This document shows, one piece after another, positions 1 to 12,581 of a stretch of DNA of 12,581 nucleotides (the first letter of the stretch is position 1; every line of letters begins with the position of its first letter). The position numbers were made by a program, and so were the translations under genes. Origin of the DNA: Burkholderiales bacterium RIFCSPHIGHO2_12_FULL_61_11 (GTDB lineage Bacteria > Pseudomonadota > Gammaproteobacteria > Burkholderiales > Burkholderiaceae_C); NCBI GenBank assembly GCA_001770785.1, contig MERZ01000388.1, forward strand, positions 1 to 12,581, written 5' to 3'. The notes under the pieces were generated by a model. That model searched no databases and was not told where the DNA came from. It worked only from the letters and a program-made list of their open reading frames with translations.

Positions 1-2
1 GT

Positions 3-368
3 GGCCGGGCTGGGGGTCAGGATCACGCTCGCCCGCAGGTTGGGTTCTTTTACGTTAAGCTGTTTGGAGCAGACGCTGTTCTCTACGTCACGATCAAGCG
101 CTGGGACGTCGCTGGCTTGTTCGTGACTGGGACTGCGACGGTGGAGTTGGAATATCGAATGGTAAGTAAGGATGGTACCGAAATCTGGAAAGCCGACGAA
201 TGGAGGCAGCGGGACGTACAGAGCAATCTTTTGACTAATTTGGTGGCATCGGCATTAAAAGACCCCATTACGATGGACCATAAGCTGCTGATGCTTGTGA
301 CTCACCATAAGCTATTCGTGCAGGACCCCAACGCCATTCCAAACGGGCCCTACCGCAAGGGCGAGTGA
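3..368 (+). CDS. GNA1162/DUF799-family lipoprotein, 3' part only
   Basis: This is the C-terminal part of a protein whose start lies before the window; the frame is open from base 3 to the TGA at 366-368. The stretch LFGADAVLYVTIKRW, then TATVELEYRMVSKDGTEIWK and the end GPYRKGE fit the GNA1162 (DUF799) family, where a 'FGADAxLYV' strand precedes beta-rich repeats and a final 'YGPRxPxY'-like motif. Family members are outer-membrane lipoproteins usually encoded beside a CsgG-like lipoprotein and a DUF4810 protein; the signal peptide and lipobox would be upstream and cannot be seen. The first 40-50 bases translate to a less typical peptide in every frame, so an upstream frame problem cannot be excluded. 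A TTG at 117 is internal and is not the start. The family call comes from remembered motifs, not a search. Confidence 0.72.
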   Translation, partial: GRAGGQDHARPQVGFFYVKLFGADAVLYVTIKRWDVAGLFVTGTATVELEYRMVSKDGTEIWKADEWRQRDVQSNLLTNLVASALKDPITMDHKLLMLVTHHKLFVQDPNAIPNGPYRKGE

Positions 369-394
369 GGAGAGAAAGGGAATGGATCAGGCTT

Positions 395-726
395 TCATTT
401 GCCATCCACCGGCGTTAATGTCATGCGCTGCAGCTCGCCTGGCATGATCCGCATCGACACCATCTGGCTACCCTGGGCACTGTTGATTTCCAGTTGGTGC
501 AGGTTGCGCTCGTAAAAGCACCCAGCTGATAAAGCGCGGCAATCATCGCCACATTGCCGACGGCCGGGCTACTGATTCCAATGTCAGGAATGGGGCAAGC
601 AGTTTGGGAAGTCGAATGTCTCTTGAGTGCCTGCTGCTGTAGTTCAATCAAAAAGATCCGTGATGCCAGCGCGACCGGCAAGTTCAGACTGATTGGAGTC
701 AGCCAGTTTGCCGAAATGCCCGCCAG
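395..726 (-). pseudogene. frameshifted remnant of an unidentified protein
   Basis: On the minus strand one frame runs from the stop TAA at 727-729 and reads convincingly as protein (SLNLPVALASRIFLIELQQQ ... VGNVAMIAALYQLGAF). At the A4 run on the plus strand (514-517) the sense changes frame: the next frame reads YERNLHQLEINSAQGSQM, then VSMRIMPGELQRMTLTPVDG and stops at 395-397. Adding one base in that run joins the two parts (LYQLGAF then YERNLHQLE). No ATG lies in the first frame; only a TTG at 679-681 is available, and it has no ribosome site, so the 5' end also looks lost. I do not recognise the family. The remnant is convergent with the lipoprotein gene, their stops lying about 26 bp apart. 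A sequencing error in the run is the alternative to real decay. Confidence 0.5.
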
Positions 727-778
727 TTAGCCGACATTGGGTTGGGTGCTACGATTTACAGAAACACAATCGGCAACT

Positions 779-1306
779 ATGACAACTCGACGAGAGATCA
801 ATTCAAAGCACGAGGGCGCAGTTATTGGTGCTGCATTACTTGCTCACAATGAGCAGATGGGAACGGCTTTCCAAGTCGAATCAAGGCCTGATCCACCAGA
901 TGCAATTTTGGTTGACGGAAATCAGCGAACGTGGATGGAGCACACAGATGCGTTTTATCCTGGGTGGGCTGAGGATTTAACGTCTTATGCTGCTACAGAC
1001 AAAGTTCATAGGCCCATGCGAAAGGGTCGCCACATGGATATGGACAATCAGGTTGCAAAAGTCTTTGCCGAGGTGGTGCTTGGAAAATTTAACAACGAAT
1101 CCTACAAGCCAACGGTAAATCAATACGGACCGGGTATTCTCGTGGTCGGCATCGAGTCACCTTGGTTCGACGGCGAAACGGTGCAGGCAATAAATGAAAA
1201 GTGGGATGAAATCGGTAGCCCCGATCTTTCAACTGTTTTTCGTTGGGTTTATCTTGGGTTCCGTTTTGGCAGTGAAAACAAGGCAATTTTGTGGGAGTTC
1301 ACCTAA
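779..1306 (+). CDS. hypothetical protein, possible PD-(D/E)XK-like nuclease fold
   Basis: A 175-residue protein of unknown function. The ATG at 779 is preferred because the sequence from MTTRREINSKHEG onward looks protein-like; a TTG at 737 in frame would add 14 residues. Neither has a clear Shine-Dalgarno site. The middle carries PDPPDAIL (37-44), then WMEHTDAFYPGWAEDL (52-67): an Asp after PP followed about 13 residues later by Glu in a strand. That is the spacing of the D...(D/E)xK core of restriction-like nucleases, but the usual Lys is Thr56 here, so catalysis is uncertain. A second conserved-looking block, GILVVGIESPWFD (119-131), could be the following strand and helix. Composition is lower in GC than the core genes, in keeping with an accessory origin. 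It lies 86 bp before the PLD/J gene on the same strand and may or may not be cotranscribed with it. Confidence 0.62.
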   Translation: MTTRREINSKHEGAVIGAALLAHNEQMGTAFQVESRPDPPDAILVDGNQRTWMEHTDAFYPGWAEDLTSYAATDKVHRPMRKGRHMDMDNQVAKVFAEVVLGKFNNESYKPTVNQYGPGILVVGIESPWFDGETVQAINEKWDEIGSPDLSTVFRWVYLGFRFGSENKAILWEFT

Positions 1307-1392
1307 CGCTCCTCGCCTATCATCAGCTTCGAGTGGAGGACTGAGCAGATTACCCGTCTCAAGCCAAGCCGACACCCTGATACCCTATCGCC

Positions 1393-2826
1393 ATGGAACT
1401 CAAAGCGCATTTCTCAAACATCCACAAGGTGATCATCCATCACCTGGAGCAAGCCCAAACCGAAATCGTCGCTGCTATTGCCTGGTTCACGGACCGTGAC
1501 ATCTTCGAGGTGCTCTGCAAAAAAGCCCGTTCCGGAATAAAGGTGTCAGTTGCACTGATCGGCGACGAAATAAATCAAGGGCCTGGCGGGCTGAATTTCC
1601 AGCGGCTCAGCAATTTCGGCGGTCAGGTGATTTTTCTGCCGCCTGGCAGCCGCGATGCACCGACCATGCACCATAAGTTTTGCGTCATCGACAGCGTCAC
1701 CGTCATCACTGGGTCGTACAACTGGAGTCAGAAGGCCCGCAGTAACGACGAAAACATAACGATCGTCACCGACTCGCAAGATTTCGCGGGGAGTTATCTC
1801 GGTACATTCGACAGCCTCCTCGCGCGCAGCGGCCACGGTTCCCCTGTCGTCGCGGATGTCGACGCTGCAAGGCGGCGGCTGGAGATGATTCGCAACCTGG
1901 TCTTGCTGGGCGAGCGGGATGATGTCGCAATCCATGTACGCAAGTTACGACCGGTCGCCGAAGCCCTTCAAGTGTCAGGAATCATCTCGGCCCTGGATAA
2001 GGGCGAGTACACGGCGGCGCTTGAGGAAATCGAAGCCTATCTGCGCAAAGCGACCGCCTTGGTGGTGGCGGGATTCGCCGACATTCCCCGCCTGCGTTTC
2101 CAGCTCGAATCCCTGGAACTGCGACTCGAATCCCTGAGTGACGAGAAGGCCGAACTGGAGCGGCGACTGATTACCTTCAACCGGCGCCACGATGATGCGC
2201 TGGGCGACCTGATTAAGCGCATCCTCAAGGCACGAGCCGAACTGGCACGGCTGCACGCAGCAGATCGGATGAACAATAAGGAACAGGAAGAAGCGGAAAC
2301 GGTCGCCCAGGAGGCCGAAGAAACTTACAATAACTTCGCCAGGCAGCACGAGGAACTGCAACGTGCAGAACCCTTGCCCAAACTCGACGTGGAGACCGAG
2401 CGGGAGCTGAAGTCACTCTATCGCAAAGCATGTGGCCTTTGCCATCCAGACAAGGTTCCAGATGAAAAGAAAGAGGCTGCGCATCGCGTATTCGTCGATC
2501 TACAAGAGGCCTACAAGGGCAATGATCTGGCCCGTGTGCGGGAAATCCATGAAACGCTTGCGGCTGGAGACCTACCGGGAACCCGATCGACCACCTTGAG
2601 CGAGGCTGTAGCACTGAAGGCGGCGATTGCCGAAATGGAATACGCCATTGCCAGGTTGGTGGCTGAACTTAAGGCAATGCAGGAAAGCGACGGGGTCCGG
2701 CTGGTGGATGCCGCCGGTGCCAGCGAGGCGGACTGGCAAGGTTTCCTTGACCGTCAGCGCGAGACACTGGAGACAGAGCTGGCCAAGACCGTATCGAACA
2801 TCCTAGCGGCACAGTCTGAAGAATAG
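1393..2826 (+). CDS. phospholipase D-like / coiled-coil / J-domain fusion protein
   Basis: A 477-residue three-part protein. Residues 1-145 form one PLD-superfamily domain: AIAWFTDRDIFEVL near the N-terminus, then the HxK(x)4D motif at H93, K95 and D100, GSYNWS at 107-112 and NDEN at 118-121. One HKD motif per chain means the active site would form in a dimer, as in bacterial Nuc and Zucchini-type enzymes, which cut nucleic acid or phosphodiester lipids. Residues about 230-335 are Glu/Arg/Leu-rich heptad-like helices, probably coiled coil. Residues about 336-390 look like a J domain (LKSLYRKACGLCHPDK, HPD at 351-353), which in known families stimulates DnaK ATPase. More helix follows (400-477). 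No signal peptide or membrane segment is seen, so it is probably cytoplasmic. ATG 1393 fits the start of the PLD fold; no good ribosome site precedes it. The stop is 7 bp before the next gene. The substrate is unknown. Confidence 0.85.
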   Translation: MELKAHFSNIHKVIIHHLEQAQTEIVAAIAWFTDRDIFEVLCKKARSGIKVSVALIGDEINQGPGGLNFQRLSNFGGQVIFLPPGSRDAPTMHHKFCVIDSVTVITGSYNWSQKARSNDENITIVTDSQDFAGSYLGTFDSLLARSGHGSPVVADVDAARRRLEMIRNLVLLGERDDVAIHVRKLRPVAEALQVSGIISALDKGEYTAALEEIEAYLRKATALVVAGFADIPRLRFQLESLELRLESLSDEKAELERRLITFNRRHDDALGDLIKRILKARAELARLHAADRMNNKEQEEAETVAQEAEETYNNFARQHEELQRAEPLPKLDVETERELKSLYRKACGLCHPDKVPDEKKEAAHRVFVDLQEAYKGNDLARVREIHETLAAGDLPGTRSTTLSEAVALKAAIAEMEYAIARLVAELKAMQESDGVRLVDAAGASEADWQGFLDRQRETLETELAKTVSNILAAQSEE

Positions 2827-2833
2827 GATTTCC

Positions 2834-4312
2834 ATGAGCGAGCAAGAAACCAAACGCTGGGCGCTTGTCCCCTATGCGGCAAGCTCTCCAGCACGGGTGC
2901 AAGTGGCAGGCAGGCAGTTGGCCATCGCCGCGCAACTAAAACAGGACATCGAACGTGGGCGACTTGTTGCGATCCTGAAACGGGTTTCACCCGAAGATGC
3001 AGTTATTTTTCTATCGAGCACGCAGGTGTTAGATGTGGGTTTAATTGAGCGTTTTGCTGATCACTGGAATTGGGGTTGTCTCTCCCGAAATACAGTCTTG
3101 CCATGGTCGCTCGATTTTATTGAAAGATTTGAGGATCGATGGGTTTGGCAAGCATACTTCGACTCGTATGCGATGCCCAGTAATACGAGCTTGCCTTGGT
3201 CACTTGATCTCATCGAACGCTTTGAATCTCGATGGAACTGGTTGCAACTCTCCGAACATGAAGGTTTGCCATGGTCGCCTGAGTTGATCGCTCGATTTGA
3301 GGATCGATGGTGCTGGTGGAACTCATACAACGGAAAGGACGGGTTCTCCGAGAATAGATCCTTGCCTTGGTCGCTTAAGCTAATCGAGCGTTTCGAGGAT
3401 AAATGGTCCTGGGGCGGGCTCTCCAAAAACAATGCTTTGACATGGTCGCTTGAGTTGATCGAACGCTTTGAGGATCACTGGCGCTGGGGGGCACTCTCCA
3501 ACAATGACGGCTTACCTTGGTCGCCGGAGTTTATCGAACGCTTTGGTGATCGTTGGAAGTGGGAGGAACTCTCGGGAAATGAAGGTTTACCCTGGTCAGT
3601 TGAGATCATCGAACGATATGAGGATCGATGGTACTGGGAGGGGGCGAAGGGACATTGGGATGTCGTAGTGGGGCTATCCTGTAATTCCTCCTTGCCTTTT
3701 TCTTTTGAGTTGATCGAACGCTATAAGGATCGGTGGGACTGGTCTTCTCTCTCTCGGAATGAAGGAGTGCCTTGGTCGCTTGAGTTCATAAAACCCTTTG
3801 AGGATCGCTGTGATTTTGATATGCTTTCCTATAATAAATCATTACTTTATTCACTCGAGCTAATCGAACGATACGAGGATCGCTGGACGTGGTCAGCGCT
3901 CTCCTGGAATACAGCGCTGCCTTGGTCGCTTGAATTTATTGAACAATATGAAGATCGTTGGGATTGGGAGCATTTGTCAGAAAACACTGCCTTACCATGG
4001 TCGCTCGAGTTTATCGAACGATATGAAGATCGTTGGAATTGGATGAATCTTTCGAAGAATACTGCCCTGCCTTGGTCTCTCCAACTGGTCGAACGCTATG
4101 AGGATCGTTGGTGCTGGAGTAATCTTTCGGAGAATGGAACTGTGGCCCAATATTTGATGCGCCCGGCTGATATCATCGAAATCATGACGAAGCATCTCAT
4201 CGAGCTCGAAGTTATTAGGGGTATGAAGGAAGATGCCATAGATGAAACCGACACAGACTTCGAGGCACTATTGGATGAATGTTTTACAAAAACTTCACCA
4301 AGATCGTACTGA
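2834..4312 (+). CDS. tryptophan-rich 25-residue repeat protein (14 units)
   Basis: A 492-residue protein built of tandem repeats. Residues 1-63 are a separate N-terminal part; 64-436 hold 14 units of 25 residues reading roughly LPWSLELIERYEDRWxW followed by xxLSxNxx; 437-492 are an acidic helical tail (LIELEVIRGMKEDAIDETD). Each unit probably makes one or two helices, giving a superhelical scaffold suited to binding protein or nucleic acid; this is inference from periodicity. Trp makes up about 8% of residues. No catalytic motif, signal peptide or membrane helix is seen. ATG 2834 is supported by AGGA at 2825-2828, which overlaps the stop of the PLD/J gene, so the two are almost surely cotranscribed and translationally linked. 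GC is lower than in the PLD/J gene. I recall similar 'WSxELIExxxDKWxW' repeats in uncharacterised proteins of several phyla but no assigned function. Confidence 0.85.
   Translation: MSEQETKRWALVPYAASSPARVQVAGRQLAIAAQLKQDIERGRLVAILKRVSPEDAVIFLSSTQVLDVGLIERFADHWNWGCLSRNTVLPWSLDFIERFEDRWVWQAYFDSYAMPSNTSLPWSLDLIERFESRWNWLQLSEHEGLPWSPELIARFEDRWCWWNSYNGKDGFSENRSLPWSLKLIERFEDKWSWGGLSKNNALTWSLELIERFEDHWRWGALSNNDGLPWSPEFIERFGDRWKWEELSGNEGLPWSVEIIERYEDRWYWEGAKGHWDVVVGLSCNSSLPFSFELIERYKDRWDWSSLSRNEGVPWSLEFIKPFEDRCDFDMLSYNKSLLYSLELIERYEDRWTWSALSWNTALPWSLEFIEQYEDRWDWEHLSENTALPWSLEFIERYEDRWNWMNLSKNTALPWSLQLVERYEDRWCWSNLSENGTVAQYLMRPADIIEIMTKHLIELEVIRGMKEDAIDETDTDFEALLDECFTKTSPRSY
3023..4141 (+). repeat. 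14 tandem 75-bp coding repeats
   Basis: In-frame units begin at 3023, 3098, 3191, 3266, 3362, 3437, 3512, 3587, 3692, 3767, 3842, 3917, 3992 and 4067. Eleven are exactly 75 bp. Units 2, 4 and 8 carry insertions of 6, 7 and 10 codons between the WxW and the LSxN part, which marks that point as a loop. Units 1-7 have Phe in 'ERFxDRW' and units 8-14 mostly Tyr in 'ERYxDRW', so the array looks assembled from two older blocks. Units 12 and 13 are the most alike (recent duplication). Unit 1 lacks the LPWS start, and unit 10 has lost its WxW (RCDFD), so these are the most worn. Confidence 0.9.
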
Positions 4313-4434
4313 GCCTCGTTAATTTGGACGGCTTTAAGGGCTTTTGGCGACCTCTCGGACTAGAAGAATCTCGGGGTGATGCAAATGGAAAAATACCTTC
4401 ATCCTCAATGGTATCGACGCAATATATAGGTAGT

Positions 4435-4487
4435 GGAGTCTGACGCAGTCGGCGGAACATTGCACGGCGGAACTGGCGTAAGACTCC
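4435..4487 (+). repeat. imperfect inverted repeat enclosing a 9-bp direct repeat
   Basis: GGAGTCT at 4435-4441 pairs with AGACTCC at 4481-4487. After one mismatch, ACG at 4443-4445 pairs with CGT at 4477-4479 and CAGT at 4446-4449 with ACTG at 4472-4475, leaving one bulged G. The loop holds CGGCGGAAC twice (4450-4458 and 4465-4473). It lies just upstream of the gene at 4525. It could be a leader RNA structure, an operator pair or a mobile-element relic. It is not terminator-like because no T run follows. Confidence 0.5.
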
Positions 4488-4510
4488 CCACACAGATACA
4501 CTTCATTGTC

Positions 4511-4517
4511 GAGGAGG
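4511..4517 (+). promoter_or_regulatory. strong Shine-Dalgarno for the gene at 4525
   Basis: GAGGAGG lies 7 nt before the ATG at 4525, an almost ideal anti-16S match. It fixes this start and shows that the AT-rich gene has, or had, an efficient translation signal. Confidence 0.8.
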
Positions 4518-4524
4518 CAATTCA

Positions 4525-5034
4525 ATGAAAATAGAGTATGACATAAATCGGTATAGAGAAATTGCAAATTTGGATCTAAATGAAATTGTCCAAGTAGCGA
4601 ACAGAAAGGGCATTAAATCGTCGATTCATATTCAAAATATAACCAAGTTGTCCTGGCGAGAACTGCAACTACTGATGCCTGATGGGGAAAATCGGTTTTC
4701 AAAAATGGTACTTTTATACAATAGATACCATACCCCTGATAGCCAGGAAGACTGTCATATGCGAGGGGAAAGATTGACGGCCTTAGAGACGGAAGAGATT
4801 AGTGATTACATAAAACTATATCAAGACAATTCATTCTCTAGGCACTTCGAGGTCAACCAGTATATTTCCGACAATAATTTTTGGGGGCGATTTCCTACAA
4901 TTCGCTCGTTGAACGACCATGGAAATTACAAAGAAATTCATGGAATACAGCCCAAATACTTTGAAGTTGTCTGTAGGTTGTTGGCTATTTCAGGAGAAGG
5001 TGGACTGCCTTTGGATGCATATAAAAAATACTGA
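4525..5034 (+). CDS. hypothetical protein, AT-rich, probably cut short by a frameshift
   Basis: A 169-residue soluble protein of unknown family, starting MKIEYDINRYREIANLDLNE and ending at the TGA 5032-5034. It contains a helix-rich first part (IVQVANRKGIKSSIHIQNIT, then LSWRELQLLMP) and charged later segments; no transmembrane helix, signal peptide or catalytic motif is evident. GC is clearly below that of the flanking core genes, a sign of horizontal origin. The end is suspect: just before the stop lies an A6 run (5023-5028), and the -1 frame beyond it continues as good-looking protein (see 5028-5188). The intact product would then have been about 222 residues. It is separated from the repeat-protein gene by about 210 bp and probably has its own promoter. 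I cannot assign a function. Confidence 0.6.
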   Translation: MKIEYDINRYREIANLDLNEIVQVANRKGIKSSIHIQNITKLSWRELQLLMPDGENRFSKMVLLYNRYHTPDSQEDCHMRGERLTALETEEISDYIKLYQDNSFSRHFEVNQYISDNNFWGRFPTIRSLNDHGNYKEIHGIQPKYFEVVCRLLAISGEGGLPLDAYKKY

Positions 5035-5188
5035 ATGATCTAGCGTTGAGTTTCTTGGAAAAATACTGTCCAAAGACGCCGATAGCTCTAAAGAGTTCGT
5101 GGATAATTTATCGGAACGCTCGGCACAACTCCAACGTTCTTTCAGAAAGAAAAGCGGTGGCCGCAACTCGACTACAGGACTTGGATAA
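5028..5188 (+). pseudogene. out-of-frame 3' continuation of the gene at 4525
   Basis: From the A6 run at 5023-5028 the -1 frame reads ILNDLALSFLEK (5028-5063). From the A5 run at 5059-5063 a further -1 frame reads ILSKDADSSKEFVDNLSER, then SAQLQRSFRKKSGGRNSTTG and stops at TAA 5186-5188. Adding one A to each run gives a single frame with the natural-looking join DAYKK-ILNDLALSFLEK-ILSKDADSS. This is either decay by two one-base losses, assembly error, or (less likely) -1 frameshifting. No start codon of its own is seen. Confidence 0.55.
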
Positions 5189-5405
5189 TTCCCGAGTGAC
5201 TGCCTCAAGTCCAAACAGCCAGATACCGGCCGTTTGTGACAGGCAGCTGCCCAAGAGCCGGACAGACTCAGAAGTCGATTTCTACCTTTGAACGACCGCT
5301 GTTGATTTTTTCGTCCAGTCTACGACTGCAATCGAGAACGAAGACCTAAGTCCGGACCTGGTCGATACCTGCCTCACAAAACCAAATCGGGTTTTGTTGA
5401 TTTGT
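5189..5405. other. non-coding debris between the accessory region and purN
   Basis: About 217 bp with no supported gene. It holds a 10-bp palindrome GGCAGCTGCC (5242-5251) and a weak AT-rich hairpin, CAAAACC 5377-5383 with GGTTTTG 5390-5396, just past the 3' end of purN. The hairpin lacks a clear T run on either strand, so a terminator role for purN is uncertain. Confidence 0.4.
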
Positions 5406-5999
5406 CTAAGTAATACCGCCACCAAACTCAAAAAAAACCCGCACCGCTTGCGGAAAAATCAGGTGTTCCTGCGTCAGCACGCGGGCTGCCAGCGTGTCAG
5501 CGCTGTCGCCCGGCAACACGGGCACTACCGCCTGCGCGAGGATGAGGCCATGGTCCAGCTCGGTCGTCACCTGGTGCACGGTCGCGCCCGCCACCTGGCA
5601 GCCTGCGTCGATGGCGCGCTGGTGCGTGTTGAGGCCGGTGAAGGCCGGCAACAGTGAGGGGTGGATATTGATCAGACGGCCCGCGTAGTGCACCACAAAG
5701 CCGGGCGTGAGGATGCGCATGAATCCCGCCAGCACCACCAGCGCGGGGGCATGCCGGTCAATGCGCGCCATCAGAGCCGCATCGAAAGACTCACGCGAAT
5801 CAAAAGAGCTGTGCGACAGCACCTCGGTGGCAATTCCCAGACTTTTGGCCAGCCCCAGGCCCTTCGCTTCCGGCTGGTTGCTGACGACGGCGGCAAGCCG
5901 CACGCCGCGCTTTTCTTGCCAGGCTTCTTTTTGGGCGGCCCTGGCAATGGCAGCCATGTTGGAGCCGCCGCCAGAAATTAAAATCACGATGTTTTTCAT
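5406..5999 (-). CDS. purN: phosphoribosylglycinamide formyltransferase (GART)
   Basis: A 197-residue PurN, close to the usual family length. It transfers the formyl group of 10-formyltetrahydrofolate to GAR, giving FGAR, the third step of de novo purine synthesis in the cytoplasm. The N-terminus has the glycine-rich phosphate-binding loop (ISGGGSNM, 8-15). The folate and active-site segments follow: LAGFMRIL (90-97), INIHPSLLPAF (110-120) and GATVHQVTTELDHG (138-151), with the catalytic trio matching N111, H113 and D149. ATG at 5997-5999 is the only sensible start. It is transcribed away from yceH, the two starts being 18 bp apart, and its probable -10 box sits inside that gap. No frameshift is seen despite a homopolymer near its 3' end. 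Confidence 0.96.
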   Translation of the reverse strand: MKNIVILISGGGSNMAAIARAAQKEAWQEKRGVRLAAVVSNQPEAKGLGLAKSLGIATEVLSHSSFDSRESFDAALMARIDRHAPALVVLAGFMRILTPGFVVHYAGRLINIHPSLLPAFTGLNTHQRAIDAGCQVAGATVHQVTTELDHGLILAQAVVPVLPGDSADTLAARVLTQEHLIFPQAVRVFFEFGGGIT

Positions 6000-6008
6000 T
6001 GTTTCAGG

Positions 6009-6014
6009 ATTATC
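6009..6014 (-). promoter_or_regulatory. candidate -10 box of purN, implying a very short leader
   Basis: On the minus strand GATAAT (5 of 6 to TATAAT) lies 9 nt before the purN ATG, so transcription would start only a few bases before the start codon. The same bases on the plus strand form the end of the AGGA ribosome site of yceH. No clear -35 is seen. Confidence 0.4.
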
Positions 6015-6017
6015 CCC

Positions 6018-6701
6018 ATGAGAGCTCTCACCCTAATCGAAGCCCGCGTGCTGGCCACCTTGATGGAAAAAGCCCGCACCGTGCCCGACAGTTACCCGCT
6101 GTCGCTCAACGCCTTGCTGCTCGGCTGCAACCAGAAAACCAGTCGCGACCCGGTGATGGAAATCACCGAGGACCAGGCCCAGGCAGCGATTGACACGCTC
6201 AAGGCGCAAAGCCTGGTATTTGAAGCCAGTTCCAGTCGTGTGCCGCGCTTTGAACACAATTTTCAGCGCGGCTTCGGCGTGAGCGAGCCGCAGGCGGTGC
6301 TGCTCGGCCTGCTCATGCTGCGCGGCCCGCAAACACCCGGCGAGCTGCGCACCAGCAGCGAGCGCTGGTACAAATTTTCCGACATTGCCAGCGTGGAAGA
6401 CGCTTTGGGCGAACTCAAGGCGCGCAGCGAGGACAGCGGTGCCGCCACGGTGGTGCAGCTACCGCGGGCCGCTGGCATGCGCGAGCAGCGGTGGGCCCAT
6501 TTACTCTGCGGCGAAAGCGCTTTAGCGGCCCTTCCTGGCGCCAGCGCTGACGATAGGGCTATTGACTCGCAAGCAGAGCCGATTTCCCTGGGCCAGGCCG
6601 AGCGCCTGCAGCAGCGCCTTGACGCCCTCGAAAACCAGGTCTTGCAGCTTCAAGGGCAGCTGGCCCATTTACAAAAAGAGCTGGGCTTGTCTCAAGCCTG
6701 A
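6018..6701 (+). CDS. yceH: YceH-family (DUF480) protein
   Basis: A 227-residue member of the YceH/DUF480 family, a conserved cytoplasmic protein with two winged-helix-like domains and no settled function. The opening LTLIEARVLATLMEKARTVP (4-23), YPLSLNALLLGCNQKTSRDP (26-45), the second block VLLGLLMLRGPQTPGELR (94-111) and YKFSDIASVEDAL (118-130) match E. coli YceH closely from memory. Residues about 189-224 (AERLQQRLDALENQVLQLQG) are a C-terminal coiled coil, also typical. The start ATG 6018 has AGGA at 6006-6009, 8 nt upstream. The gene is divergent from purN, so its promoter must lie inside purN; TAAAAT at 5979-5984 is a possible -10. The stop is 51 bp before the dehydrogenase gene. Confidence 0.93.
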   Translation: MRALTLIEARVLATLMEKARTVPDSYPLSLNALLLGCNQKTSRDPVMEITEDQAQAAIDTLKAQSLVFEASSSRVPRFEHNFQRGFGVSEPQAVLLGLLMLRGPQTPGELRTSSERWYKFSDIASVEDALGELKARSEDSGAATVVQLPRAAGMREQRWAHLLCGESALAALPGASADDRAIDSQAEPISLGQAERLQQRLDALENQVLQLQGQLAHLQKELGLSQA

Positions 6702-6721
6702 CAGCTGGGCGCGCGCGGTCG

Positions 6722-6730
6722 TGCTACAAA
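6722..6730 (+). promoter_or_regulatory. possible extended -10 promoter of the dehydrogenase pair
   Basis: TGCTACAAA has the TGn-TAnAAA form of an extended -10 box and lies about 22 nt before the ATG at 6753. A CTGACA at 6698-6703 is too far (21 bp) for a normal -35. GGAGA at 6741-6745 is the ribosome site. Confidence 0.35.
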
Positions 6731-6752
6731 ACACGCCACTGGAGAACTTGCC

Positions 6753-7934
6753 ATGGAATTAGCTTTCACCCCTGAAGAGCAGGCTTTTCGCGAAGAAATA
6801 CGCGCCTGGGTACAGGCCAATCTGCCGGCCGATATTGCGCACAAGGTGCACAACGCCTTGCGCCTGTCGCGTGACGATCTGCAGCGCTGGGCCAAAATCC
6901 TCGGCAAGAAAGGCTGGCTGGGACACGGCTGGCCCAGGGAATTTGGCGGCCCGGGCTGGACTGCCGTGCAAAAGCACTTGTTCGAGGAAGAATGCGCGCT
7001 GGCCGGCGCACCGCGCCTGCTGCCGTTTGGCCCGGTGATGGTCGCGCCCGTCATCATGGCGTTCGGCAATGCCGAGCAGCAAAAGCGCTTTCTGCCAGGC
7101 ATCGCCAGCGGCGAAGTCTGGTGGAGCCAGGGCTACAGCGAGCCAGGCGCGGGCTCGGACCTGGCCTCGGTCAAATGCCGGGCCGAGCGCCAGGGCGACA
7201 AATACATCGTCAATGGCCAGAAGACCTGGACCACGCTGGGCCAGTACGGCGATTGGATTTTTTGCCTGGTCCGCACCGCAACCGTTGGCAAGCCGCAAGC
7301 CGGCATTTCCTTTCTGCTGATCGACATGAAATCGCCAGGCGTGACGGTGCGCCCCATTGTGTTGCTCGACGGCGAGTGCGAGGTCAATGAGGTCTGGTTT
7401 GACAACGTGGAAGTCCCTGCCGAGAACCTGATCGGCGAGGAAAACAAGGGCTGGACCTACGCCAAGCACCTGCTCAGCCATGAGCGCACCAACATCGCCG
7501 ATGTGAACCGTTCCAAGCGCGAACTCGAACGCCTCAAGCGCATTGCGAAAGCCGAGGGCATTTATGACGACGCGCGTTTCCGCGATGAAATCGCCAAACT
7601 CGAAGTCGATGTGGTGGCGCTTGAAATGCTGGTGCTGCGCGTGCTCTCGGCTGAAAAATCCGGCAAGAACTCGCTCGACATCGCGGGCCTGCTGAAAATC
7701 CGCGGCAGCGAAATCCAGCAGCGCTACAGCGAGCTCATGATGCTGGCAGCTGGCCCCTACAGCCTGCCTTTCATCGAGCAAGCCATGGAAGCAGGCTGGC
7801 AAGGCAACTTCCCCGGCGGCGTCACCGCCAATGCCCCGCTCGCCTCCACCTACTTCAATCTGCGCAAGACCACGATTTATGGCGGCACCAACGAGATCCA
7901 GCGCAACATCGTTTCGCAGGTCGTTCTCGGTTGA
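6753..7934 (+). CDS. acyl-CoA dehydrogenase, large (PimC-like) subunit
   Basis: A 393-residue FAD-dependent acyl-CoA dehydrogenase, which would oxidise an acyl-CoA to the trans-2-enoyl-CoA and pass electrons to ETF. Visible family marks are the N-terminal helices with ELAFTPEEQAFREEIRAWV, WWSQGYSEPGAGSDLASV (123-140, flavin and substrate contacts), KTWTT (157-161), the mid beta domain LLIDMKSPGVTVRPI, VPAENLIGEENKGW (221-234), and IYGGTNEIQRNIV near the end. The Glu of the MCAD-type 'IYEGT' is Gly here; E244 in LLSHERTNIA (240-249) lines up with the base of isovaleryl-CoA-type enzymes and is the likelier base. Start ATG 6753 has GGAGA 7 nt upstream. The partner gene follows 27 bp later. Similarity to PimC of R. 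palustris is recalled, not searched; chain length and acid type are unknown. Confidence 0.9.
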   Translation: MELAFTPEEQAFREEIRAWVQANLPADIAHKVHNALRLSRDDLQRWAKILGKKGWLGHGWPREFGGPGWTAVQKHLFEEECALAGAPRLLPFGPVMVAPVIMAFGNAEQQKRFLPGIASGEVWWSQGYSEPGAGSDLASVKCRAERQGDKYIVNGQKTWTTLGQYGDWIFCLVRTATVGKPQAGISFLLIDMKSPGVTVRPIVLLDGECEVNEVWFDNVEVPAENLIGEENKGWTYAKHLLSHERTNIADVNRSKRELERLKRIAKAEGIYDDARFRDEIAKLEVDVVALEMLVLRVLSAEKSGKNSLDIAGLLKIRGSEIQQRYSELMMLAAGPYSLPFIEQAMEAGWQGNFPGGVTANAPLASTYFNLRKTTIYGGTNEIQRNIVSQVVLG

Positions 7935-7961
7935 GCGGACAAGATTTAAAGGACAAGCATC

Positions 7962-9077
7962 ATGGATTTTGACTTCACAGACGAGCAGGAACAACTGCGC
8001 GACGCGACTCGCAAGTGGGTTGACAAGGGCTACAGCTTTGAGCGCCGGCGAGGCATTGCCAAGGCGGGCGGCTTCTCCCGCGAGGCCTATGGCCAGCTGG
8101 CTGAGCTGGGCCTGACGGGTCTCTACATTCCCGAGGCGCAGCGCGGACTCGGCATGGGGCCGGTCGATGGCATGGTGGTGATGGAGGAACTCGGCCGCGG
8201 CATTGTGCTGGAGCCTTTTACCCAGACGCTGATGGCTGGCGCCGTGCTTTCTGGCTATGCACCGGAGGCAGTCCAGTCCGCCTGGCTGCCGAAAATCGCT
8301 TCGGGCGAGCGCCTGGTGGTGCTGGCTTACCAGGAACGCCCGGCCCGCTACCACTTCGAAAAGTGTGAAGCAAAAGCGGCTCCGGCCTCCGCTGGATGGG
8401 CGCTGACAGCGACTAAAAGCCTAGTCGCCGCGGGTGACCAGGCGGATGCTTTCATGGTGCCCGCCCTGGTCAAGGGCAAGATGGCGCTGTTCCTGGTCGA
8501 GCGCGCGACGGCGGGCGTGACCACGTACGGTTACGGCACACAGGACGGGGCGCGGGCCGCGGAAGTCATTTTCGAAGATGCGTCCGCCACGCTGATCACC
8601 CTGGAAGGCCTGACCGCCCTGACCCACGCGATGGACATCGGCATTGCCGCCAGTTGCGCCGAAGCGGTCGGCGTGATGGACAAAATCCTGGCCATCACGG
8701 TCGAGTACCTGAACACCCGCAAGCAGTTTGGCGTGGCCATCAGCAGCTTTCAGGCGCTGCGCCACCGCGTGGCGGACATGAAGATGCAACTCGAACTGGC
8801 CCGCTCGATGAGCTACTACGCGTCGCTCAAGCTCAATGCGCCGACCGAAGAACGCCGCCGCGCCCTGGCCCGCGCCAAATACCAGCTCGGTGTTTCCATG
8901 CGATTTGTCGGCCAGCAAGCAGTGCAACTGCATGGCGGCATTGCGGTCACCGACGAATACATCGTGAGCCACTACTTCAAGAAGCTCACGCAGCTGGAGA
9001 TGACGTTTGGCGACACGCTGCATCATCTGGGCGAGGTGTCCCGGCAAATGCAGGACACGGCCGGGGTGTTTGCCTGA
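7962..9077 (+). CDS. acyl-CoA dehydrogenase, small (PimD-like) subunit
   Basis: A 371-residue acyl-CoA dehydrogenase-fold protein, shorter and more divergent than its neighbour. It opens MDFDFTDEQEQLRDATRKWV and includes GLYIPEAQRGLGMG (53-66), LAYQERPARYHF in place of the usual 'TEPxAGSD' segment, TRKQFGVAISSFQALRHRVA (252-271), VQLHGGIAVTDEYIVSHYFK (321-340) and a C-terminus that stops before the 'GTxEIxR' motif. The TRKQFG and QLHGG marks are the residues that help bind FAD in the partner site in this superfamily, so the two subunits probably form a mixed oligomer of the PimC/PimD or alpha2beta2 kind. AAAGGA at 7948-7953 gives a good ribosome site 8 nt before the ATG. It is cotranscribed with the gene at 6753 and ends 33 bp before the convergent HNH gene. 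Confidence 0.88.
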   Translation: MDFDFTDEQEQLRDATRKWVDKGYSFERRRGIAKAGGFSREAYGQLAELGLTGLYIPEAQRGLGMGPVDGMVVMEELGRGIVLEPFTQTLMAGAVLSGYAPEAVQSAWLPKIASGERLVVLAYQERPARYHFEKCEAKAAPASAGWALTATKSLVAAGDQADAFMVPALVKGKMALFLVERATAGVTTYGYGTQDGARAAEVIFEDASATLITLEGLTALTHAMDIGIAASCAEAVGVMDKILAITVEYLNTRKQFGVAISSFQALRHRVADMKMQLELARSMSYYASLKLNAPTEERRRALARAKYQLGVSMRFVGQQAVQLHGGIAVTDEYIVSHYFKKLTQLEMTFGDTLHHLGEVSRQMQDTAGVFA

Positions 9078-9110
9078 ACCGCAGGCTTGGTCTGCAGCCA
9101 GGCCTTGAGC

Positions 9111-9668
9111 TCAGGCGTGCAGGCGCGAGGTCTTGGGAATGTGCGCCATCAAAAACTCCATCTGGTCCGCCAGAATGCGGCGGTTACGCAGGATGAAGTC
9201 TTCCCACAGGCTGGGCACATAAGGCGTGTACAGCAGCGGCATGCGGGCCTGCTCGGGGGTGCGGCTGCTTTTGCGGTGGTTGCAGGAGCGGCAGGAAGTC
9301 ACCACATTCATCCAGGTGTCTACGCCCTTCTGCGCGAACGGGATGATGTGCTCGCGCGTCAATTCTTCTTCGTAAAAATGCCCACCGCAGTAAGCGCACA
9401 CATTGCGGTCGCGTGCAAACAGCTTGCTGTTGGTCAGCCCGGGTTTGATCTCAAACGGGTTGATATTGGGCACGCCCTTGGTGCCGATGATGCTGTTGAT
9501 CGTGATGAGGGACTGCTTGCCGGTGATGGCGTTGTGGCCACCGTGAAACGTCGCCACGCGCGCGCCGATTTCCCAGCGCACTTCATCCGCCGCGTAATGC
9601 AGCACGGCTTGTTCAAGGCTGATCCACGATTGCGGCAACCCCTGGGCTGAGAGCTTCAAGACCTTCAA
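9111..9668 (-). CDS. HNH endonuclease-domain protein
   Basis: A 185-residue protein with a zinc-ribbon HNH domain: CAYCGGHF (91-98), LTREHIIPFAQKG (103-115), WMNVVTSCRSCNHRKSSRTP (119-138). C91/C94 and C126/C129 would hold zinc; H107 is the likely general base and N121/H131 complete the motif. HNH domains cut DNA with a divalent metal; the role of this stand-alone chromosomal member is unknown. The N-terminal 80 residues (KVLKLSAQGLPQSWISLEQA) are conserved-looking but not recognised. I choose the TTG at 9666-9668 rather than the GTG at 9693-9695 because GGAGG sits 6 nt before the TTG and the sequence before it (FPCTWRF) looks like leader. It is convergent with the dehydrogenase pair and divergent from ribF. 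Confidence 0.87.
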   Translation of the reverse strand: MKVLKLSAQGLPQSWISLEQAVLHYAADEVRWEIGARVATFHGGHNAITGKQSLITINSIIGTKGVPNINPFEIKPGLTNSKLFARDRNVCAYCGGHFYEEELTREHIIPFAQKGVDTWMNVVTSCRSCNHRKSSRTPEQARMPLLYTPYVPSLWEDFILRNRRILADQMEFLMAHIPKTSRLHA

Positions 9669-9674
9669 AACGAA

Positions 9675-9679
9675 CCTCC
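9675..9679 (-). promoter_or_regulatory. Shine-Dalgarno fixing a TTG start of the HNH gene
   Basis: On the minus strand GGAGG lies 6 nt before TTG (9668-9666). No such site precedes the longer GTG alternative. Confidence 0.7.
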
Positions 9680-9710
9680 ATGTGCATGGAAACACGGCAT
9701 CCGACTATCG

Positions 9711-9728
9711 ATGTGTCAAATGTGTCAA
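9711..9728 (-). repeat. 9-bp perfect tandem repeat TTGACACAT x2
   Basis: Read on the minus strand, TTGACACAT occurs twice with no spacer, about 45 bp upstream of the HNH start. Each copy contains a perfect TTGACA -35 hexamer, but no good -10 is found 16-18 bp after either. It may be a -35 element, an operator, or both. Confidence 0.6.
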
Positions 9729-9825
9729 TATACAGTGAAATCAGAAAAACAGCAGGGCCAACCGGTTCCGATGGCTGATTAACCAGCGCCAGACGTCGCC
9801 AATCCGGCGCTGCTGCCAGAAAAAC

Positions 9826-9831
9826 GATAAT
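9826..9831 (+). promoter_or_regulatory. candidate -10 box of ribF, near-leaderless
   Basis: GATAAT (5 of 6 to TATAAT) ends 8 nt before the ribF ATG at 9840. There is no Shine-Dalgarno sequence in the gap (TGGCCCTC), so the transcript probably begins at or just before the start codon. No clear -35. Confidence 0.45.
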
Positions 9832-9839
9832 TGGCCCTC

Positions 9840-10865
9840 ATGAAAGTTTTCCGCGGCTACCATCATCCCCAGCTGGCGCCGCACTGCGCCCTGACCATTG
9901 GCAATTTCGATGGCGTGCATCGTGGCCATCAGGCCATGCTGGTACTGCTCAGGAACGAGGCCGAGCACCGCGGCGTGCCCAGCTGCGTCATGACCTTTGA
10001 GCCACATCCGCGTGACTATTTCGCCGCGCTCGCCCGCAAACCCGAGCTGGCGCCCGCGCGCATCGCCACGCTGCGCGACAAGCTCACCGAGCTGGTGCGC
10101 TGCGGCATCGACCAATGCGTGGTCCTGCCCTTTAATGCAAAGCTGGCAGCGCAGCCGCCCGAAGCTTTTATTGAGGAAGTGCTGGTGCGCGGCCTGGGGG
10201 TCCAGTACGTGCTGGTGGGCGATGATTTCCGCTTCGGTGCCAAGCGCACCGGCGACTACGCCATGCTGGACGCAGCCGGCATGCGCCAGGGTTTTGACGT
10301 CGCCCGCATGAACAGTTATGAAGTGCATGGTTCCCGGGTGTCCAGCTCCTCCGTGCGGGACGCGCTGGCGCAGGGTGATATGGACCGGGTCGCAAGCCTG
10401 CTGGGGCGGCCTTTCAGTATTTCGGGTCATGTGGTGTATGGCCGAAAATTGGGCCGTGAACTGGGTTTTCGCACGCTCAACATGCGCTTTTCCCACTGGA
10501 ATCCGGCCGCCAGCGGAATTTTTGCGGTGCAGGTCCATGGCTTGGTCGCGCAGCCACTGCCAGGGGTCGCCAATCTGGGCATCAGGCCTTCGCTTGACCC
10601 CAATGACGTCAACGGCGGGCGCGTGCTGCTCGAAACCCATTGCCTCGAATGGCCCGCCAGCCTTGGCCCGGAAGGGGCATACGGTAAAATTGTGCGCGTG
10701 GAACTGCTACACAAACTGCATGACGAACTGAGATATGACGGGCTGGCCAGCCTGCAAGCGGGTATTGCCAGAGACTGCGACGCTGCACGGGCCTTTTTTG
10801 CCCAGTCGTTTTCGGCGTCCATGCACACGGAAACCAGCCGCCAGACCATGCGCGACCGAATTTAG
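9840..10865 (+). CDS. ribF: bifunctional riboflavin kinase / FAD synthetase
   Basis: A 341-residue RibF. It phosphorylates riboflavin to FMN and adenylylates FMN to FAD in the cytoplasm, supplying the cofactor used by the dehydrogenases upstream. The N-terminal adenylyltransferase domain shows [11 protein letters not shown] (20-30, with the HxGH nucleotide motif), FEPHPRDYF (53-61), [15 protein letters not shown] (126-140) and SSSSVRDAL (168-176, the ISSTxIR-type motif). The C-terminal kinase domain starts about residue 190 ([20 protein letters not shown]) and ends with [13 protein letters not shown]. The usual Mg-ATP motif PTAN reads RTLN (211-214): Thr and Asn are kept, Pro and Ala are not. 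ATG 9840 is preferred to the in-frame TTG 9831, which overlaps the -10 box and has no ribosome site. ileS starts 130 bp downstream, an order common in beta- and gammaproteobacteria. Confidence 0.95.
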
Positions 10866-10968
10866 ACGATCTCGCTACCTGGCCTTGACGCTCGCCACTC
10901 CAAGCGTCGGCAAACAGCTTGCTTCCCACCCGTATTTTTCCACGGCTTTGCCTCTTCAGGCCGCCCCC

Positions 10969-10974
10969 AACAAT
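10969..10974 (+). promoter_or_regulatory. weak candidate -10 box of ileS
   Basis: AACAAT (4 of 6) lies 21 nt before the ileS ATG, with a weak TTTGCC at 10947-10952 sixteen bases further up. No strong ribosome site precedes the ATG. Transcription from ribF is the alternative. Confidence 0.25.
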
Positions 10975-10995
10975 AGCGCCTCCTTAAAGCACCTC

Positions 10996-12581
10996 ATGTC
11001 TGACAAAAAAAACGACTACCGCAGCACCCTGAACCTGCCGGAAACCCCTTTCCCCATGCGCGGCGACCTGCCCAGGCGCGAGGCCGGATGGGTCAAGGAA
11101 TGGGAAGACAAGGGGCTCTACAAAAAACTGCGCGATGCACGCTGCGGCGCGGCGAAGTTTGTGCTGCATGACGGCCCCCCGTATGCCAACGGCAAGATCC
11201 ACATCGGCCACGCCGTCAACAAGATTCTGAAAGACATGGTCGTCAAGGCGCGCCAACTCAAGGGGCTGGACGCGATTTATGTGCCGGGCTGGGACTGCCA
11301 CGGCCTGCCGATTGAAAACGCCATTGAAAAACTGTACGGACGCAGTCTGCCGCGCGACGAAGTGCAGGCCAGGAGCCGTGCCTTTGCGACCGAGCAGATT
11401 GCGGGGCAGATGGCCGATTTCAAACGCCTGGGCGTGCTGGGCGAATGGGACAACCCCTACCGGACCATGGATTTCGGCAACGAGGCCAATGAAATCCGCG
11501 CGCTCAAACGCATCATGGAACGCGGCTTTGTCTATCGCGGACTGAAACCCGTGTACTGGTGTTTTGACTGCGGCTCGTCGCTGGCCGAGTTTGAGATCGA
11601 ATACGCCGACAAGAAATCTCAGACGCTGGACGTCGGCTTCAAATGCGCCGAGCCTGAGAAACTGGCTGCAGCCTTTGGCTTGCCAAAGCTTGCCAAAGAC
11701 GCCTTTGCGGTCATCTGGACCACCACCGCATGGACCATACCGGCCAACCAGGCGCTCAACCTGAACCCCGAACTCGACTACGCGCTGGTCGATACCGAAC
11801 GCGGCATTTTGCTGCTGGCAGCCGTGCTGGTCGACAAATGCCTGGAGCGCTATCAGCTCACGGGCACGGTGCTGGCGACCACGCAGGGCAAAAACCTCGC
11901 GCTGCTGAACTTCATGCACCCGCTGCACGACGTGGATGCGGGCTACCGGCGCTTGAGCCCGGTGTTTCTGGCCGACTACGCCACCGCCGAAGATGGCACC
12001 GGTGTCGTGCATTCCTCGCCCGCCTACGGCGTGGAAGACTTTAACTCCTGCGTGGCCCATGGCATTGCCTATGATGACATCCTGAATCCGGTGCAGGGCA
12101 ACGGCCGCTATGTGGATGACTTGCCGCTGTTTGGCGGGCTCAACATCTGGAAGGCCTGCCCCATCGTGATCGAAACGCTGCGCGAGCACGGCAGGCTGTT
12201 TGCCACCGAAAACATTGTTCACAGCTACCCGCACTGCTGGCGCCACAAGACGCCGGTGATCTACCGCGCAGCCGCCCAGTGGTTCATCCGCATGGACGAA
12301 GAGACCGCCGGCACCCAGGGCGTGTTCCCCAAGAACAAGGCCAGCAAGACCCTGCGCCAGCTGGCCCTGGCGGCGATTGAGGAAACCCGCTTCTACCCCG
12401 AAAATGGCAAGATCCGATTGCAGGGAATGATCGCGGGCCGGCCCGACTGGTGCATCAGCCGCCAGCGCAACTGGGGCGTTCCGCTGCCCTTCTTCATTCA
12501 CACCGCCACGGGCGAATTGCACCCGCGCACCATGGACATCATGGACCAGGCAGCCGACATGGTGCAGGCGGGGGGCATCGA
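10996..12581 (+). CDS. ileS: isoleucyl-tRNA synthetase, 5' part (runs off the window)
   Basis: The first 528 codons of a class I isoleucyl-tRNA synthetase, open to the last base; the full enzyme would be near 940 residues. It charges tRNA-Ile with isoleucine and removes misactivated valine. Seen in order: N-terminal [20 protein letters not shown] (10-29), the ATP-binding HIGH motif at 69-72 within [45 protein letters not shown], and the CP1 editing domain with [16 protein letters not shown] and [39 protein letters not shown] and [13 protein letters not shown] follow close to the window end. The KMSKS loop and the C-terminal zinc and anticodon-binding parts lie beyond the window. Start ATG 10996 is set by family N-terminal similarity. 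An A8 run right after the start is in frame, with no sign of indels. lspA would be expected next. Confidence 0.97.

Follow-up and report, generated by a model that had tools for sequence, protein, structure and literature searches.

A constant coiled-coil–J-domain protein with exchanged repeat partners suggests a modular sensor–effector system in a Burkholderiales bacterium

We analysed a 12,581-nucleotide stretch of DNA (the window; contig MERZ01000388.1, positions 1 to 12,581, forward strand) from Burkholderiales bacterium RIFCSPHIGHO2_12_FULL_61_11, and focused on two adjoining genes in its left part. The first encodes PLD-J, a PLD–helical–coiled coil–J protein, and the second encodes a protein built largely of tryptophan repeats (the Trp-repeat protein). 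The stop codon of PLD-J ends at 2826 and the ATG of the Trp-repeat gene lies at 2834, leaving a gap of 7 base pairs (bp). An original prediction, made from the sequence, had proposed a PLD domain, a coiled coil and a J domain in one protein, the residues H93, K95, D100 and HPD, the 7-bp spacing with a ribosome site over the first stop, and a repeat protein of 14 units. The sequence itself, Pfam, alignment, an AlphaFold2 model and a hidden Markov model (HMM) of the repeat unit bore out these points. The features of the pair are as follows.

1393..2826, + strand: PLD-J, 477 amino acids (Pfam, alignment, AlphaFold2 model)
1432..1818, + strand: single-HKD PLD domain, PLD-J residues 14-142 (PLDc_2 match)
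1669..1692, + strand: HKD motif H93-x-K95-x4-D100 of PLD-J (invariant in 20/20 rows; pattern in 120/120 listed proteins)
1858..2061, + strand: helical linker, PLD-J residues 156-223, retained in PLD-Trp fusions (model helices; blastp 1-228/227; alignment A6)
2080..2364, + strand: long coiled-coil helices, PLD-J residues 230-324 (model helices 230-291 and 295-324; absent from P0143 and P0237)
2395..2517, + strand: J domain, PLD-J residues 335-375 (PF00226, E 8.6e-6; PDB J chains)
2443..2451, + strand: HPD motif H351-P352-D353 (20/20 rows; 119/120 listed proteins; 18/18 Bacteroidota regions)
2602..2820, + strand: C-terminal helices, PLD-J residues 404-476 (model)
2825..2828, + strand: AGGA, ribosome-site-like, overlapping the TAG stop codon of PLD-J (sequence)
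2834..4312, + strand: Trp-repeat protein, 492 amino acids (open reading frame, unit HMM, model)
2861..2938, + strand: N-terminal motif ALVP...VQVAGRQLAIAAQL, residues 10-35, putative docking helix (motif profile searches)
3023..4141, + strand: array of 14 Trp repeats, residues 64-436 (unit HMM; two short helices per regular unit in the model)
1..5426, no strand: accessory insert with the pair, its left end outside view (blastn homology break and GC content)

PLD-J has a PLDc_2 match on residues 14-142 (Pfam, E 1.4e-18). In its AlphaFold2 model (mean predicted local distance difference test score, pLDDT, 79.7; predicted template modelling score, pTM, 0.40), the HKD motif sits in a PLD fold of the Nuc/NucT/Zucchini type, for which structure comparison gives Nuc and NucT, both nucleases, as nearest, followed closely by Zucchini and FAM83B. 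The J region shows the helix-HPD-helix arrangement together with the HPD tripeptide, the motif that contacts Hsp70, and its best sequence match to a J chain in the PDB has an E value of 1.4e-6. Both folds on which the original prediction depended are present. H93, K95, D100 and HPD 351-353 are invariant in all 20 aligned rows including the window, down to 28% identity; among 120 listed database proteins (the window's own included), the HKD pattern occurs in every one and HPD in all except P0003. At least 545 proteins match PLD-J at E<=1e-3 among the approximately 8000 candidates scored. Second copies of the pair proteins were not detected in their own genome at E<=0.001. Neither protein matched a STAND/NACHT nucleoside triphosphatase (NTPase) in Pfam or NCBIfam up to E 1, and we rejected NLR-like STAND membership on this ground.

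For the Trp-repeat protein, we built an HMM from 11 of its units, mostly 25 residues long; it recognised 14 units, the first degenerate. The AlphaFold2 model has a mean pLDDT of 88.0 and a pTM of 0.81, and at least 366 proteins match at E<=1e-3 among the approximately 8000 candidates scored. We then calculated, over 1229 units of the window protein and 120 relatives, how often each letter occurs, as a percentage of the units that have any letter at the position concerned. The scaffold is near-fixed (L1 96%, W3 96%, W15 95%, W17 96%, L20 96%, N23 99%). The freest positions are 18, 19 and 22 (3.7, 4.0 and 3.9 bits), and positions 5, 12 and 16 vary too (3.2, 2.8 and 2.7 bits). Within the window's 14 units, positions 16, 18, 19 and 22 are freest, at 2.7-3.0 bits, with 1.1 bits at position 12 and 1.5 at position 5. 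Codons followed the same division in the 11 window units without loop insertion: scaffold codon pairs were identical in 387 cases, synonymous in 275 and non-synonymous in 273, and those at positions 16, 18, 19 and 22 in 5, 15 and 200 cases, respectively. Positions 5 and 6, which were kept outside both classes, gave 28 identical, 21 synonymous and 61 non-synonymous pairs. Helix 2 of regular units corresponds approximately to positions 17-22 in the model, which puts 18, 19 and 22 on that helix; these residues may make up a common recognition face of the array.

Relatives of the repeat are found in several settings. The repeat model has 46 predicted-structure matches in BFVD at E<=0.001 (best 2.9e-17), and the entomopoxvirus 'tryptophan repeat gene family' takes ranks 3, 5 and 7. 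These viral proteins and their giant-virus relatives resemble the window protein as Trp-repeat solenoids, a likeness of predicted structure alone. We know of no role for the viral family, nor of a J or PLD partner. Other Trp-repeat proteins bear kinase, DarT, TIR, UDG, HRDC, HNH, dynamin or Hsp70 domains, and GIY-YIG-like domains by a weak match (P0132, MUG113, E 0.0027, under the cut-off). By eye, P0144 has a GIY-YIG-like N-terminal stretch before its Trp repeats, and a GIY-YIG-like gene upstream of PLD-J at locus L004 (6973-7587) has an N-terminal stretch resembling that of P0132. P0223 combines Trp repeats with a large N-terminal Hsp70 domain, P0186 has an Hsp70-like piece mid-protein, and the Trp-repeat array of P0134 encloses a TIR domain (398-510).

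We next asked how the pair is conserved. A scan for PLD relatives in one genome per species (84,980 species) gave 50 loci. Nine of the loci considered are near full length, with a match reaching at least residue 459: the window and the proteobacterial loci L002-L009. A Trp-repeat frame overlaps or directly follows PLD-J in eight of these nine, so the two genes are not, as had been considered possible earlier, rarely neighbours elsewhere. PLD-J identity to the window is 81% in L002, 80% in L003, 75% in L009, 68% in L004, 61% in L006 and 44% in L007; the Trp partners of these six are 51-55% identical to the window's over the aligned part, and that of L008 is 46% identical. Three further proteobacterial PLD-J loci (L011, L016, L022) either run into a contig end or break off after the PLD part, and L045, L046 and L051 contain fragments. 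Among 20 whole genomes with PLD-J or relatives, seven, all proteobacterial, have Trp-repeat proteins, and these lie at the PLD-J locus; one genome (G414) has one extra copy besides.

On sequence evidence, the pair is rare and accessory. At E<=1e-20, PLD-J was found in 2 of 399 genomes of the order, one by its PLD domain only, and the Trp-repeat protein in 1 of 398 genomes of the phylum, namely the window's own. The accessory setting that had been proposed was confirmed by blastn: homology of the window to its relatives starts only at 5425-5445 (8/8), to the right of the pair. GC content is 0.42-0.58 in the left part and 0.58-0.63 from 5601 on. No record covered 80% of PLD-J among 72,556 plasmids (22 partial matches) or 50,697 phages (3 partial matches). 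Viral contigs held six PLD-J loci, one of them near full length (L055); exact back-translated patterns of the Trp protein, a narrow test, matched no viral contig. One plasmid (NZ_CP149222.1, 10958-11452) encodes a 'DnaJ family molecular chaperone' with a 31% match to PLD-J residues 312-472.

In Bacteroidota relatives and in the viral contig L055, the neighbours of the J gene differ from the Trp-repeat pattern of the proteobacterial pairs; those in Bacteroidota are WG, TPR, LRR, beta-propeller, Fib_succ_major or Trp-repeat proteins. WG partners occur in L015, L055 and L012 (approximately 1.4 kb upstream, with small open reading frames between), and TPR partners in L017 and L021 and, by eye, L019 and L020. 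In L018 the J gene is followed by vWA, PP2C-like and kinase genes (Pfam for all three), and in L023 likewise by eye. L014 has an upstream motif protein whose fold was not recognised, L010 has WG-like repeats by eye approximately 1.2 kb upstream and non-adjacent, L027 has PP2C-like and WG-kinase genes nearby, and L013 and L024 are cut by contig ends. The L027 kinase (12152-14314) has ten WG-repeat stretches and, by eye, an N-terminus near that of the Trp-repeat kinase P0146, an exchange of WG for Trp repeats in another setting.

A class survey of 395 genomes, 27 of them with a match, widened this picture. We took 18 regions (L138-L155) from 18 genomes, setting aside the L012 locus and any match that covered only the N-terminal PLD part; L152, a weak J relative amid ordinary-looking genes, was retained in the counts. 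HPD is present in the J proteins of all 18 regions. A PLD domain with HKD is present in 7 (L138-L144), 10 have neither HKD nor a PLD match (L145-L149, L151-L155), and L150 has a PLD-like part without HKD before its HPD-bearing J part. Genes of vWA and PP2C-like type accompany a kinase in L140, L144, L153 (upstream, opposite strand), L154 and L155; the vWA and kinase calls in L140 and L144 are by Pfam and the remaining vWA, PP2C and kinase calls in L138-L155 by eye. The coiled-coil-J part is thus the constant core, with or without PLD, and the repeat protein is exchanged.

Many Trp-repeat proteins that lack an N-terminal domain begin with a motif, 'ALVP...VxxAGRQLAIAxxL', the second part of which falls in modelled helix 18-50 of the window protein; a Bacteroidota version reads like VGNQIAITNKLL. 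We built an HMM from 39 such N-termini, 32 of them from the 120 listed relatives and the rest from the window and six proteobacterial loci. Applied to 3344 frames from 49 loci outside the training set, it gave three significant matches (E<=2.7e-5; L012, L014, L015), all in genes overlapping or within approximately 1.5 kb of PLD-J, two of them for WG proteins; a fourth row, the gene after PLD-J in L055, was no better than chance (E 2.3). A search with the motif region of the L012 WG protein returned itself and ten close WG relatives. Among 753 frames of the 18 Bacteroidota regions, there were 16 matches at E<1 (best 6e-8, weakest 0.042; best shuffled E 3.7), and all 16 adjoin the J gene or stand in tandem with such a gene, in 11 regions. 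Several loci have more than one partner gene (L139, L143, L145, L148). What follows the helix differs: Fib_succ_major (first copy in L139), TPR (L145, L146, L149, L150), 11 Trp-repeat units (L147), LRR (L143 twice; weaker in L141 and the second L145 gene), beta-propellers (L142; weaker in L151), and in L148 a sequence that matches no recognised fold.

In whole genomes that carry a J gene, the motif profile A5 gave 19 matches at E<=0.05, spread over 13 of the 19 genomes. Eighteen lie at the J locus, the exception being G822:C43 (E 0.004); four of the matched genomes supplied no rows to A5, and their five matches are all at the J locus. A5 missed G1127, though its L151 region has a motif match in the 18-region search. 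Of 20 control genomes without a J-gene match, one has a weak A5 match (E 0.018). Among 120 Trp-repeat proteins, those whose repeats begin within 140 residues have the motif in 47 of 71 cases (15 of 39 once the training rows are set aside); of the 49 with more sequence ahead of the repeats, one has it, namely P0136.

Natural fusions back the pairing of PLD-J and Trp-repeat protein as real. P0143 and P0237 are single chains in which the PLD domain and helical linker lead into Trp repeats (blastp; alignment A6), without the coiled-coil-J part and without a detectable motif. The joint absence of motif and coiled-coil-J in these PLD-Trp fusions is as expected of a docking pair. In P0139 the coiled-coil-J part is joined to Trp repeats with no PLD domain; the motif profile gives no significant match to it, and LPD replaces HPD. 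P0136 is an apparent run-on of both genes in which coiled-coil-J and motif are both kept.

We propose the following mechanism. The constant component would be the coiled-coil-J protein, carrying here a Nuc/Zucchini-type single-HKD PLD domain as the putative effector, and its HPD would recruit host Hsp70 (DnaK). The N-terminal helix of the repeat protein would dock on the coiled-coil-J region, and the repeats would recognise a trigger through variable residues on the fixed Trp scaffold. In the resting cell, Hsp70 may act on the complex and keep or reset it; trigger binding or chaperone withdrawal would then render the PLD domains active, presumably as dimers by analogy with Nuc, to cut nucleic acid. 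Nuc-type PLD nucleases work as dimers. The likely purpose would be a response to phage or another invader. We lean slightly towards a modular sensor-effector unit on a J-domain platform as broadly right. As to its parts, nucleic acid is the likely PLD target; a two-part sensor and effector with helix docking is reasonably probable; Hsp70 involvement has moderate probability; and a role in defence against phage or other invaders we hold to be evenly balanced. The original prediction had cast the repeat protein as sensor and the PLD protein as effector, with DnaK holding or remodelling the complex. Its pairing and domains are what we observe, and its roles are ones that we infer.

Several observations weigh against this proposal. 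The DnaJ match of PLD-J (residues 335-375, E 8.6e-6) scores 26.2 bits, slightly under the Pfam cut-off of 27.8. L005 (Polaromonas), amid transposase-like genes, has no Trp-repeat partner, and no partner adjoins the J gene of L025. The rows that trained the motif HMM were Trp-repeat N-termini selected by eye, 9 of the 13 genomes matched by A5 had contributed rows to it, and the weakest A5 matches at J loci (E 0.007 and 0.04) are near or no better than the control match. The Hymenobacter TPR partners gave no significant motif match, 24 of the 71 Trp-repeat proteins with short N-termini lack the motif (in some the start is perhaps cut off), and 7 of the 18 Bacteroidota regions have no match, five of them having vWA- and PP2C-like genes instead and L138 and L152 neither. 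The motif is not universal among J-gene partners, and docking through it is therefore not universal.

Genomic context gives the defence role little weight. We ran PADLOC on 57 neighbours at seven proteobacterial loci (57 of 71 open reading frames of at least 120 amino acids; 13 of L005 and one of L007 were excluded), which matched 126 families at E<=1e-5. A single OLD-type gene after the Trp-repeat gene of L008 (11364-13148; Old, E 5.5e-211) gives 120 of these by itself, and two-component genes (Pfam) probably account for some of the remainder. Nine other near neighbours of proteobacterial pairs, scanned singly, had no PADLOC match, and the near neighbours are ordinary-looking, the OLD-type gene apart. 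A known defence gene thus adjoins only one of the seven pairs examined; the proximity to known defence genes that was to be checked did not hold up, and we rejected the defence-island argument.

The alternative that survives best, although we consider it unlikely, is a stress or protein-quality module, in which the J protein and repeat adaptors would steer DnaK to clients and PLD would process nucleic acid or lipid in stress. It agrees with the constancy of the J part, also without PLD, with the scarcity of known defence genes near the pairs, and with the repeat folds, such as TPR and WD, which commonly bind proteins. Against it stand the patchy distribution (the two order genomes in 399, one by PLD only), the accessory insert that carries the pair, and proteins in which Trp repeats are joined to DarT, TIR, HNH or kinase domains or, by a weak match, to GIY-YIG-like ones. 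The proposed sensor-effector mechanism also has a bolder form, which we regard as improbable: a receptor platform whose built-in J domain would make host Hsp70 the ATP-driven switch in place of a STAND ATPase, where one helix would plug in many receptor folds (Trp, WG, LRR, TPR, propellers) and the Trp array would read its ligand by a per-repeat code, made up chiefly by the variable positions 16, 18, 19 and 22 on a scaffold that is near-fixed elsewhere.

Two narrower alternatives concern single domains of PLD-J. The J-like region may be a mere structural arm of the coiled coil that has lost Hsp70 recruitment, as the sub-threshold Pfam score and the variable residue after HPD (K, M, V, I, R, S, A or L) would allow; we find this doubtful, given that HPD is kept in all but one of the 120 listed proteins and in every one of the 18 regions, and is lost (LPD) in the cis fusion P0139. 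It is similarly doubtful that PLD acts on lipid or another phosphodiester. The PLD superfamily takes in lipid enzymes, and the best PDB sequence matches of the domain are named 'Mitochondrial cardiolipin hydrolase', but the nearest folds are the nucleases noted above. Very improbable is a toxin-antitoxin-like pair, in which the repeat protein would be a bound inhibitor whose loss frees the PLD nuclease: the two genes adjoin or overlap, are co-inherited and in L004 have a mobile-looking setting (ParA- and relaxase-like genes by eye), but gene order varies (partner upstream in L014, L021, L141, L142 and L151), partner folds are unrelated with several per locus in L139, L143, L145 and L148, single-chain fusions occur and many J proteins lack PLD.

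Two accessory open reading frames, 737-1306 and 4525-5034, matched nothing in Pfam, PADLOC or NCBIfam at E 1, and the loci compared contain no relative of either. Promoter and terminator scans of the window were no better than shuffles, an Rfam scan gave no match and a tRNA scan no tRNA.

We compared the pair with known systems. DrmC of DISARM and MkoC (PADLOC models) have weak similarity to PLD-J (E 7.7e-7 and 2.5e-6), confined to the PLD domain, and no system partner was found among the five window open reading frames scanned by PADLOC. In DISARM the PLD protein DrmC stands beside helicase-type Drm genes and a methylase, and MkoC is, we take it, the PLD protein of a Mokosh-type system. TerY-P triads comprise vWA, PP2C and kinase genes, as set out in the part of PMC11090510 consulted, and such genes follow the J gene in L018, L023, L140, L144, L154 and L155. 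The genes beside the window pair are none of the three, and that part of PMC11090510 does not mention a PLD-J neighbour; we rejected a triad at the window, where the pair and frames 117-368, 737-1306 and 4525-5034 have no such Pfam match. In the portion of PMC12169576 used here, bNACHT25 requires host DnaJ for phage sensing. The likeness is an Hsp40 in phage sensing; the difference is that there the sensor, a NACHT protein, draws on the DnaJ of its host, whereas in the window the J domain forms part of the putative effector itself.

The closest precedent in principle, as far as the sections of Kaur et al. 2020 (PMC7159879) considered here go, is the EAD conflict systems. There, a small and mostly helical module couples swappable effectors or sensors to a core, the case for coupling draws partly on direct fusions, and superstructure-forming repeats are common. 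Among the GAP1-N2 neighbourhoods described in these sections, one theme has HSP70 and FNIII-DnaJ proteins and another kinase, PP2C and vWA genes. EADs are proposed there to be homotypic, with one copy per partner, whereas the link proposed for the window would be heterotypic, between sensor helix and coiled-coil-J platform. We rejected homotypic EAD-type coupling by the motif, since all 16 matches are in partner genes and no J-gene frame matched at E 1. The window pair showed neither an NTPase nor a protease core. A search of the open-licence PMC literature returned no description of the PLD-J unit or the motif.

Taken together, a constant J protein with swapped repeat partners, often sharing one common N-terminal helix, suggests a modular sensor-effector system. 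If this is true, a chaperone-centred class, with a constant J protein, an optional nuclease and plug-in sensors, would join the modular bacterial conflict systems. The N-terminal helix would serve as a simple search handle for further sensors of unknown fold, and the model can be tested directly through the joint absence of the docking parts from fusions. The pair would also give a bacterial setting to the tryptophan-repeat fold annotated in insect poxviruses.

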